48,354 nucleotides of DNA from Flavobacteriaceae bacterium (GTDB taxonomy: Bacteria > Bacteroidota > Bacteroidia > Flavobacteriales > Flavobacteriaceae): NCBI GenBank assembly GCA_018608625.1, contig JABAZC010000044.1:1-48354 (forward strand), read 5' to 3'. The notes under the pieces are model-generated. The model did no database searches. It was given only the letters and a program-made list of their open reading frames with translations, and had not been told where the DNA came from. Both the position numbers and the translations under genes were made by a program. The number at the start of each line of letters is the position of its first letter. The first letter of the stretch is position 1. Of this stretch, positions 40,886 to 42,815 are shown in pieces.

Positions 40886-41698
40886 ATGCAAAATCTACCC
40901 AAAATCGGACTCCCAATTATCATTATAGTTGGTGTGCTTTTTCTATTAATTTCTAAATCAGCTGTGACAATAGGCCCCGGAGAGGGTGGCGTATTATTTG
41001 AGCGTTTTGGAGATGGTATTGTAACTGACAAAACCTATGGAGAAGGTTTTCAGATTGTAGCACCATGGAACTCCATGTTAATTCAAAAAGTAAGACAACA
41101 ATCTATTTCAGATGAAATGAATGTCCTTTCAGTTAACGGGTTGGAAGTTACAGTAAATGGAACTATATGGTATGAACCAGAATATGAAAACCTTGGAAGT
41201 TTAATTAAAACAAAAGGGGAAGACTATGTGACGGAACTTTTAAACCCTGCTGTTAATGCAGCTGCTCGTAGTGTAGTTGGTCGTTACACACCTGAACAAT
41301 TATATTCTAGTAAGCGTGACGTCATTGAGCAAGAAATTCTTGATGAAGTTGTAACTTTATTAGATGGTCAATTTTTAAATGTAAAACGTATTTTAGTTGA
41401 AGATGTAACGCTTCCAAATACAATTAAAACTGCCATTGAAAGTAAACTAAAGCAAGAACAGGAATCTTTGGAGTATGAATTTAGATTAGTGACTGCTGAT
41501 AAGGAAGCTCAAAAAGTACGTATTGAAGCACAAGGTAAAGCAGATGCTAATAGGATTCTAAGTGCCTCTCTAAACGATCGTATCCTTCAAGATAAAGGAA
41601 TTGAAGCGACTGTTAAGTTGTCTGAATCTCCTAACAGTAAAGTCATCGTAATCGGTTCCGGAAAAAATGGATTACCTATTATATTAGGAAATCAATAA
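40886..41698 (+). CDS. Prohibitin-like SPFH/Band 7 membrane protein
   Basis: 270 residues. One N-terminal helix (about 6-26), SPFH domain (GPGEGGVLFERFGDGIV to about 190), and a coiled coil rich in Glu, Lys and Ala (KLKQEQESLEYEFRLVTADKEAQKVRIEAQGKADANRILSAS). Prohibitins form large membrane-bound rings that steady membrane protein complexes and regulate AAA proteases. The last codons belong to the first copy of a 49-bp tandem repeat (41691-41788), so the 3' end of this gene was duplicated. Confidence 0.9.
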   Translation: MQNLPKIGLPIIIIVGVLFLLISKSAVTIGPGEGGVLFERFGDGIVTDKTYGEGFQIVAPWNSMLIQKVRQQSISDEMNVLSVNGLEVTVNGTIWYEPEYENLGSLIKTKGEDYVTELLNPAVNAAARSVVGRYTPEQLYSSKRDVIEQEILDEVVTLLDGQFLNVKRILVEDVTLPNTIKTAIESKLKQEQESLEYEFRLVTADKEAQKVRIEAQGKADANRILSASLNDRILQDKGIEATVKLSESPNSKVIVIGSGKNGLPIILGNQ

Positions 41699-41788
41699 TT
41701 CCTAAGATATAGTTAGGTTTTAACTATTTATTTTATGAAATCAATAATTCTCAAATTATAGTTAGGTTTTTACTATTTATTTTATGAA
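41691..41788 (+). repeat. Tandem duplication, two 49-bp units
   Basis: Units 41691-41739 and 41740-41788 abut exactly and differ at about five of 49 positions. The left unit starts in the last codons of the prohibitin-like gene; both hold TAGTTAGGTTTT and CTATTTATTTTATGAA. The units lie immediately before the his leader and may contain its promoter, although no TAnnTTTG box is seen in them. Confidence 0.9.
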
Positions 41789-41811
41789 TATTTACAAAAT
41801 CTTTAATTTCA

Positions 41812-41874
41812 ATGAACACATTATTACTTATTCATCACCATCTTTCTACAACTAGCTATCAAGCAAGGTGTTAA
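41812..41874 (+). CDS. Histidine operon leader peptide
   Basis: A 20-codon ORF, too short for normal gene calling. It encodes MNTLLLIHHHLSTTSY and four more residues, with His codons CAT CAC CAT at 41833-41841 and TAA at 41872. Three His in a row ahead of a his operon, with a terminator between the ORF and hisG, is the classical layout of ribosome-mediated attenuation. When charged tRNA-His is scarce, the ribosome should stall at codons 8-10. No Shine-Dalgarno sequence is present, as is normal in this phylum. The leader shares no reading frame with hisG. Confidence 0.8.
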   Translation: MNTLLLIHHHLSTTSYQARC

Positions 41875-41916
41875 TGAGTTGAATAAATATTCTAAATCAT
41901 ATAAAAACCCGTTTGA
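41859..41916 (+). promoter_or_regulatory. Putative antiterminator of the his attenuator
   Basis: Bases 41859-41872 can pair with 41906-41916, the left arm of the terminator, by eleven pairs (one G-U) with bulges at 41865-41866 and 41869. The left strand is exactly the last five codons of the leader ORF, so a ribosome that reaches the stop would cover it, and one stalled at the His codons would leave it free. Confidence 0.55.
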
Positions 41917-41937
41917 GCAATCAAACGGGTTTTTTTT
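41903..41937 (+). terminator. Attenuator terminator before hisG
   Basis: Perfect 10-bp stem ACCCGTTTGA (41907-41916) / TCAAACGGGT (41921-41930), loop GCAA, extended by AAAA/TTTT, with a run of eight T (41930-41937). It lies between the leader stop and the hisG ATG, so it can only act on his operon transcripts or readthrough from the prohibitin-like gene. Confidence 0.9.
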
Positions 41938-41957
41938 ATCAAAATTTAAACATTATT

Positions 41958-42815
41958 ATGGAGACACTTAAAATTGCAGTTCAGAAGTCAGGACGACTAA
42001 AAGAAGACTCAATGAAACTATTAAAAGATATTGGGGTTTCAATAGATAACGGAAAAGACCAACTGAAGGCAAGGGCATCAAATTTTCCAATTGAGGTTTT
42101 TTTTCTTAGAAACGGGGACATTCCCCAGTATTTAAAAGATGGTGTTATAGATGCTGCTATTATTGGTAACAATATCCTTGTTGAAAAAGTACCGTCTATT
42201 GAATCTATTTGCAATCTCGGATTTTCAAAATGCAGAGTGTCCATTGCAGTGCCAAAAGGAATAAATTATGAATCACTTAATGATTTAGAAGGCAAGCAAA
42301 TCGCCACTTCTTATCCGAATACTGTGAATGCTTTTTTGAATAAAAATCAGATAAAAGCCAATATTCACGTCATTAATGGCTCCGTAGAAATTGCACCAAA
42401 TATCGGCTTGGCTGATGCCATTGTTGACATCGTTTCAACTGGTGGAACTCTCTTTAAAAATAATCTAATTGAAAAGGATGTTATTCTAAAGTCTGAAGCT
42501 GTTTTAGCAGTATCCCCTTCAATTCAAACGGCTCAAGAAGCAATTTTAAATAAAATTAAATTCCGGATTAAATCCGTACTCAAAGGGCAGTCTTCTAAAT
42601 ATGTTCTTCTAAATGCACCAAATGATAGCCTCGAGGCAATTATAACACTGTTACCAGGAATGAAAAGCCCAACAGTACTTCCATTGGCTGAATCTGGATG
42701 GAGCTCCGTACACAGCGTCATTGATAAACATCAGTTTTGGGATATTATCGACGATCTAAAAGCACTGGGAGCAGAAGGGATCCTTATTTGTCCAATCGAA
42801 AAAATGGTTCTTTAA
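41958..42815 (+). CDS. hisG: ATP phosphoribosyltransferase, long form
   Basis: 285 residues from the ATG at 41958 (METLKIAVQKSGRLKEDSMKLL). The longer frame from 41913 starts inside the terminator stem and is rejected. DAAIIGNNIL near 65 and ADAIVDIVSTGGTLFKNNLIE near 155 are the PRPP-site segments; the last 75 residues form the regulatory HisG C domain (LLPGMKSPTVLPLAESGWSSVHSVID), so this is the hexameric, histidine-inhibited type that needs no HisZ. It carries out the first step of histidine synthesis. hisD starts at its stop (TAATG). Confidence 0.97.
   Translation: METLKIAVQKSGRLKEDSMKLLKDIGVSIDNGKDQLKARASNFPIEVFFLRNGDIPQYLKDGVIDAAIIGNNILVEKVPSIESICNLGFSKCRVSIAVPKGINYESLNDLEGKQIATSYPNTVNAFLNKNQIKANIHVINGSVEIAPNIGLADAIVDIVSTGGTLFKNNLIEKDVILKSEAVLAVSPSIQTAQEAILNKIKFRIKSVLKGQSSKYVLLNAPNDSLEAIITLLPGMKSPTVLPLAESGWSSVHSVIDKHQFWDIIDDLKALGAEGILICPIEKMVL

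Follow-up and report, generated by a model that had tools for sequence, protein, structure and literature searches.

The window, the whole 48,354-nucleotide stretch of Flavobacteriaceae DNA analysed here, carries a his operon in which profile matches place hisG, hisD, hisC, hisB, hisH, hisA and hisF in this order. The features of the window that are listed below with coordinates around hisG lie on the forward strand. The first gene of the operon, hisG (41958–42815), matches TIGR00070 and TIGR03455 over the cut-off. On its 5′ side and on the same strand lies an SPFH/prohibitin-like gene that ends at 41698 and has a weak match to HflK, below the cut-off. Between this gene and the hisG ATG at 41958 sit a leader ORF and a hairpin. 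The initial annotation had read these elements as a complete candidate histidine attenuator, and this observation as a whole is confirmed, including the coordinates and the order of ORF, antiterminator strand, terminator and hisG. A 49-bp tandem duplication of 2.4 copies (41672–41788) covers the end of the SPFH/prohibitin-like gene and reaches into the leader promoter. The sequence GTTAGGTTT occurs twice in the window and once in each of the eight near relatives that were checked.

The leader peptide ORF (41812–41874) starts with the ATG at 41812, encodes MNTLLLIHHHLSTTSYQARC and ends with TAA at 41872–41874. The 20 codons and the CAT CAC CAT at codons 8–10 (41833–41841) that had been pointed out earlier are seen in the sequence, and the operon is hence preceded by a short leader ORF rich in codons for the amino acid of the pathway. 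An intrinsic terminator lies between this leader and the first gene. Its hairpin (41903–41934; –18.4 kcal/mol) has a GCAA loop and a T-run that is shared with the right arm. Hairpin and T-run agree with the earlier description, which had counted 10 bp, and the stem reaches 14 bp once A-U pairs using the T-run are counted. The region 41813–41945 as a whole has a folding z-score of –4.47, and none of 200 shuffles is equally stable. The antiterminator left strand, Q (41859–41869), is formed by the final leader codons and is a near copy of the terminator right arm. In the family, the leader tail has the consensus CTCAAGCGAGGTGA and resembles the terminator right arm TCAARCGGGTT, so that both are able to pair with the left arm. 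In the window, duplex computation gives part of the terminator left arm (41907–41916) as the alternative partner of Q, with 9 pairs (6+3) and –8.5 kcal/mol. The pairing first proposed is therefore borne out, if not its length of 11 pairs; the description of its left strand as exactly the last five codons is near but not literal, as its first nucleotide is the last one of codon 16.

Comparison with relatives had been set beforehand as a test of the attenuator, and its outcome did not refute the proposal. The family sample comprises 149 Flavobacteriaceae genomes including the window’s own, of which 123 contain HisG, and upstream DNA was taken for all 123. An ORF of 10–30 codons that has two or more His between codons 5 and 13 precedes hisG at 122 of these 123 loci, the window included; the leaders of L048 and L055 need GTG start codons for this. 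At the sole miss, L009, a contig end cuts the locus and the terminator is still present. The 122 leaders contain 2–6 His each, and the His run is kept, with HHH in 105 leaders and at least HH in 118, in a search that itself required two His. We also applied a stricter test, which demands at least three His within 8 residues and a terminator no more than 70 nt after the ORF, in the last 260 nt before hisG. Such an ORF with its terminator is found at 115 of 123 family loci and in none of the 123 reverse complements or 369 dinucleotide shuffles, whereas the ORF alone is found at 118 of 123 loci, 2 of 123 reverse complements and 4 of 369 shuffles. Conservation in the family measured against these controls places the leader with its terminator far beyond chance. 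A second set, the best 80 of at least 508 candidate loci from named genomes, partly overlaps the 123-locus sample and includes Algibacter, Polaribacter, Winogradskyella, Olleya and other genera, which point to Flavobacteriaceae as the family. At all 80 of these best loci, the leader ORF has two or more His in codons 5–13; 78 show the leader-plus-terminator pattern, and the other two have the same leader and, by eye, a variant terminator. Among the matches listed, the nearest named HisG proteins (85–87% identity) come from metagenome-assembled genomes, mostly labelled Flavobacteriaceae, with one Formosa sp. One such genome labelled Rhodobacteraceae (L127) has a HisG 86% identical to that of the window behind a Flavobacteriaceae-type leader, and is perhaps a mislabelled or mixed bin.

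Alignment A1 comprises the 122 family leaders, and the permutation and shuffle tests made on it ignore relatedness. The terminator helix is 97.9% paired over the 122 sequences, with changes on both sides in 7 of 12 pairs. The antiterminator pairing is also kept among the relatives: 87.0% of its cells are paired, compared with 21–49% when it is slid by 1–3 columns, and its covariation score of 0.136 is matched by none of 500 shuffles. In the same alignment, its 5 both-side-changed pairs (reached by 67 of 500 shuffles) and its 18 further pair types (reached by 53 of 500) are not unusual. The most telling antiterminator pair joins columns 53 and 133, because column 133 lies in the terminator loop and is left unexplained by the terminator helix. 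These columns are paired in 76 of 118 sequences (A-U 29, G-C 20, U-A 19), compared with 50.3 (sd 4.6, maximum 67) in 5000 shuffles. Both positions are readable in 57 of the 80 named loci and pair in 46 of these 57, a count without a control. Moreover, the leaders’ own Q:T5 duplexes have a mean energy of –12.76 kcal/mol, compared with –11.70 kcal/mol for permuted partners (0 of 2000 permutations). A consensus fold of the whole of A1 recovers the terminator alone. A short motif like CAACATAT, which might be a pause site, stands between the post-stop strand and the terminator in 103 of 122 leaders, counted with a loose pattern and no control.

The initial annotation had described two helices. Both are supported, but that model is incomplete, as it misses a conserved third helix. 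In the window, duplex computation places the 5′ strand of this helix, N, at 41828–41841 and its 3′ strand, P, at 41874–41886, from the last base of the stop codon on, and both are conserved in the family. The window’s own helix is weak, with –6.4 kcal/mol for 41812–41845 with 41872–41902. Across the family, the post-stop sequence ATGTATTGAATAAA is complementary to the codons that open the leader, often TTTATTCAATTACAT, and in clades with other early codons the partner changes too, as in L098, where UUUUUACAUCACC faces GGUGUAUGUGAAAAA. The leaders’ own N:P duplexes have a mean of –10.17 kcal/mol, compared with –7.78 kcal/mol (sd 0.22) for permuted partners (0 of 2000 permutations), and the own duplex beats dissimilar partners in 102 of 122 leaders. 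For the comparison pairings N:Q, Q:P and P:T5, own partners have no advantage over permuted ones; the unintended pairings H:P (6/2000) and N:T5 (7/2000) also beat permutations, by 0.2–0.3 kcal/mol. In one fixed register, 66.6% of the N:P cells are paired and 13 of 15 pairs show changes on both sides. Taken with the terminator, N:P has 79.0% of cells paired and a covariation score of 0.168, compared with 29–48% and 0.065–0.096 in structures slid by 1–3 columns; the 20 both-side-changed pairs, against 11–19 in the slid structures, are a weak argument by count alone.

N:P encloses the Q strand and shares no strand with the antiterminator, and the two can thus coexist only as a pseudoknot. In the trp attenuator of E. 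coli, the position of the ribosome selects between protector, antiterminator and terminator helices. The hisG leader resembles this system in having candidates for all three, with a choice that would likewise be set by the ribosome. Whereas the trp protector shares strand 2 with the antiterminator, however, the third helix described here shares none and encloses the left strand. By analogy, we infer that N:P serves as a protector and/or a pause hairpin, and would be like trp 1:2 in role, not in wiring.

Upstream of the leader start, alignment with relatives identifies a candidate –7 box, AATATTTA (41787–41794), a degenerate form of TAnnTTTG. It scores 4 of 6 against this motif, the lowest of the 122 leaders, and the window is one of 8 without a relaxed box. 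The same place reads AATATTTG in L002, which belongs to the same genus, and in L124–L129 and L140. The –7 box is taken to lie at –12 to –5 (PMC9723704). For the window, a transcription start near 41799 and a 5′UTR of about 13 nt are estimated from the alignment with relatives. In 45 of 122 leaders, the 45 nt before the leader start contain a full TAnnTTTG; shuffles give 3.8 on average, and a control stretch located farther upstream contains it in 3 of 121 cases. The relaxed box is found before 114 of 122 leader starts; here shuffles give 17.5, and the control stretch contains it in 16 of 121 cases.

The 5′UTRs estimated from relaxed boxes (n = 114) fall at 0–7 nt in 41 leaders, at 10–18 nt in 72 and at 29 nt in one; exact boxes (n = 45) give 21 at 0–7 nt, 22 at 13–20 nt and two at 29–31 nt. 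UTRs longer than about 33 nt are outside the detectable range of these estimates. In the 14 leaders with more than one relaxed box, the estimate uses the nearest, and using the farthest instead preserves both groups of 5′UTRs. Some leaders are therefore predicted from their –7 boxes to be nearly leaderless, and the predicted 5′UTRs of about 0–7 or 10–18 nt offer a concrete lead as to how a leader could be initiated without a Shine-Dalgarno sequence. In F. johnsoniae, by comparison, leaders longer than 10 nt are reported for 87% of those transcripts that have a probable promoter (PMC6847099), and leaderless mRNAs make up 5.5% in F. psychrophilum (PMC9723704). An A at –3 has been described as a Kozak-like preference (PMC6847099). 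In the family leaders, A is the most frequent base at –3 (71 of 122) but also everywhere else from –1 to –6, and the window leader has T at –3.

The spacing of the leader can be set against the dimensions of a ribosome, whose footprint extends about 12–13 nt ahead of the A-site codon. In the 122 leaders, the distance from the start of the last His codon in the run to the first base of Q has a median of 15 nt (IQR 15–16), and that from the start of Q to the stop codon a median of 12 nt (IQR 11–12), Q having been sought only within 24 nt before the stop. With this footprint, a stalled ribosome would just free Q, and a ribosome at the stop codon would cover it. In the window, a ribosome on the His codons leaves the transcript from 41849 to the left arm, and the free transcript 41849–41917 folds into an extended antiterminator of –11.6 kcal/mol. 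If a ribosome occupies the stop codon instead, the sequence left free (from 41887) has an energy of 0.0 until the terminator forms, and then of –18.9 kcal/mol. These computed values, –11.6 against 0.0 kcal/mol, fit the earlier proposal that stalling frees the strand and that a ribosome at the stop codon hides it. By computation, the antiterminator and the terminator are mutually exclusive, with opposite outcomes for a stalled and a finished ribosome. At equilibrium the terminator wins even in the stalled state, with –25.2 kcal/mol for 41849–41936. As the terminator is favoured in all states once its right arm has been made, the choice must be kinetic and fall during transcription.

The attenuator interpretation of the initial annotation is thus supported, on the basis of the sequence parts, their conservation and covariation, the computed energies and the spacing. 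We consider it very probable that the element controls the his operon by ribosome-mediated transcription attenuation in response to charged histidyl-tRNA. Where transcription starts, that the leader is translated, that ribosomes stall on it and that this affects hisG are inferred, and we propose the following mechanism. When His-tRNA is scarce, the ribosome would stall at the His codons, cover the leader start and break the N:P helix. It would leave Q free to pair with the terminator left arm as soon as this is made, and RNA polymerase would read into hisG. When His-tRNA is ample, the ribosome would run on to the stop codon and there mask both Q and the beginning of P, which would let the terminator form. 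Without a ribosome, N:P would form first and probably disfavour the antiterminator and/or pause RNA polymerase.

A hairpin between two genes on the same strand could also be the ordinary terminator of the upstream SPFH/prohibitin-like gene, accompanied by a chance ORF. We find this scarcely credible in view of the conservation of the His ORF, the spacing and the antiterminator pairing, the empty controls for leader plus terminator (0/123 and 0/369) and the –7-like boxes near the leader ATG (114/122, against 16/121 further upstream). Structure conserved at the RNA level would likewise be expected of a histidine-binding riboswitch or a protein-bound 5′ element with an untranslated ORF. Against such an element, the ORF keeps its start, His runs and stop at near-fixed spacing while its other codons vary, and no Rfam family is found at threshold in the window or at the leaders of 13 relatives; we regard it as very improbable.

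A further alternative leaves the attenuator itself in place. In this case, N:P and the antiterminator would together form an H-type pseudoknot, and an untranslated leader would be read through. The loops estimated between N, Q, P and T5, with medians of 11, 2 and 16 nt over the 121 of 122 loci with an N:P duplex of –6 kcal/mol or better, are not obviously prohibitive. By analogy with trp, however, an untranslated leader would terminate, and we consider the pseudoknot variant unlikely.

The preferred reading, an attenuator in which N:P has a protector and/or pausing role, can be compared with known leaders. The enterobacterial his leader contains seven His codons in a row and a ladder of stems. 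The element described here shares with it a short leader ORF with consecutive His codons and alternative antiterminator and terminator structures before hisG, but differs in having 2–6 His per leader, fewer stems and a very short predicted 5′UTR. RF00514, which we take to be the Rfam family of the enterobacterial his operon leader, is absent from the 23 Rfam matches that the window gives with E up to 10. All 23 are below their cut-offs, and by E-value a Streptococcus sRNA and PyrR rank first. The 23 include leaders of the Leu, Thr and Trp types and no His leader. No Rfam family reaches its gathering score in the window, nor at the leaders of 13 relatives, for which the only match is an SRP RNA elsewhere in L204. 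Vitreschak 2004 reportedly mentions attenuators in Bacteroidetes/Chlorobi in its abstract.

The initial annotation had called his attenuation established in Enterobacteria, which omits both Rfam’s Bacteroidetes Trp leader RF01692 and a mention of leader-peptide attenuation, together with a hisG 5′ element, in Flavobacteriaceae (PMC9723704). The former, Bacteroid-trp, is the Bacteroidete tryptophan peptide leader of Weinberg 2010 (PMC2864571). It resembles the hisG leader in its phylum and in being, by Rfam’s description, a peptide leader RNA, but is a Trp and not a His leader. The hisG leader is absent among the window’s matches to RF01692 with E up to 10, and the trpE leader of the window’s own genome matches this family over its full length with 43.1 bits (E 0.011), below the gathering score of 49. 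For F. psychrophilum, strong indications of leader-peptide attenuation before amino-acid operons were reported in 2021, together with a structured 5′ element before hisG that is conserved in other Flavobacteriaceae genera and has no Rfam match (PMC9723704). This element resembles ours as a structured element upstream of hisG, and the main-text passages concerned give no anatomy. In Bacteroides thetaiotaomicron, short ORFs in long 5′UTRs have been likened to leader peptides that act in attenuation; a hypothetical gene serves as the example, and the term ‘his operon’ is absent from the main text (PMC7366714). The anatomy given here was not found described in the text available of PMC4833913, PMC9723704, PMC7366714, PMC6847099, PMC2864571 and PMC6429828, most subscription papers lying outside the search. 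In kind, this is classical ribosome-mediated attenuation, to which the present analysis contributes the anatomy with its third helix, the covariation, the breadth and the prediction of a very short 5′UTR.

Outside the family, 116 loci from 39 families, chosen by hand or ranking, were examined in a phylum sample of 252 genomes with HisG. A His-rich ORF precedes hisG at 69 of these 116 loci and is joined by a terminator at 38, in 11 families. In the controls, the ORF and the ORF with terminator were found in 2 and 0 of 116 reverse complements and in 12 and 0 of 348 shuffles. No such ORF was found in 20 of the 39 families examined, among them f17 (9 of 9 loci). His leaders with differing terminators thus recur in several families of the phylum, the terminator sequence varying by family, as in AGGCTTACC and ACCCCGGC. 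At 22 of 32 chosen loci with leader and terminator, the pre-terminator stretch pairs with the left arm at z < –2.

One family, f23, has a His-rich ORF before hisG at 16 of 16 loci (L205–L210, L215, L217, L220, L223, L228, L304, L306, L307, L317 and L318), none with an intrinsic terminator by the strict test. The spacer to hisG contains 3–10% G and 19–31% C, like a Rho site, the hisG start being misplaced at some loci; a G-poor, Rho-like spacer seems to stand in place of the intrinsic terminator. In several f23 loci, the His codons lie within predicted hairpin arms. In L207, L208, L215 and L317, the start codon follows TATATTTG by 4–5 nt, and the leader therefore looks leaderless. At the f3 loci L273, L278 and L279, where the strict test finds no intrinsic terminator, the last His codons and the following bases can by eye form a hairpin (CATCGCC with GGCGAT).

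Attenuation requires a ribosome that starts promptly behind RNA polymerase. As the phylum does without Shine-Dalgarno sequences (PMC6847099), the hisG leader is a clean natural test of initiation and of transcription-translation coupling. It is possible, though we would not favour it, that the attenuator follows a design peculiar to the phylum, with a near-leaderless leader peptide, tail codons that copy the terminator right arm and a conserved helix around the tail. If this were true, the ribosome would load without a Shine-Dalgarno sequence as soon as the RNA emerges, and the helix around the tail, possibly as an H-type pseudoknot with the antiterminator, would set the outcome in the absence of a ribosome. 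The element is compact and, present at 122 of 123 sampled Flavobacteriaceae hisG genes, provides more than 100 natural variants. The hisG leader could become an Rfam family and a reporter of His-tRNA charging.

In the window’s own genome, leader peptides followed by a terminator also precede trpE (MNFTLNNIWWWNSRKIKS, with WWW) and pheA (MINANYIFYSFYYFFFRKEIVALCV, rich in F/Y), and no leader with a terminator was found in about 340 nt upstream of ilvD. L324 and L326 of this genome carry pheA and trpE, and L324 also has a SAM-II riboswitch (RF01726). Covariance model R1 was used to look for the element before other genes as well. Its strongest matches, in the rows compared with HisG positions, stand just before hisG. 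At E 0.01 the model is unspecific, as at least 138 of 149 genomes match, compared with 123 with HisG, many of them with several weak matches. An extra match in G138 is a second copy at a contig end. The extra match in G052 has a terminator and lacks a His ORF, and the weaker matches in G111 and G025 lack a His leader. In G027 (L359), the his leader and then the first hisG codons are kept, there is no HisG match and the next long ORFs listed do not look like HisG; here the operon seems to have been lost and the attenuator left behind.
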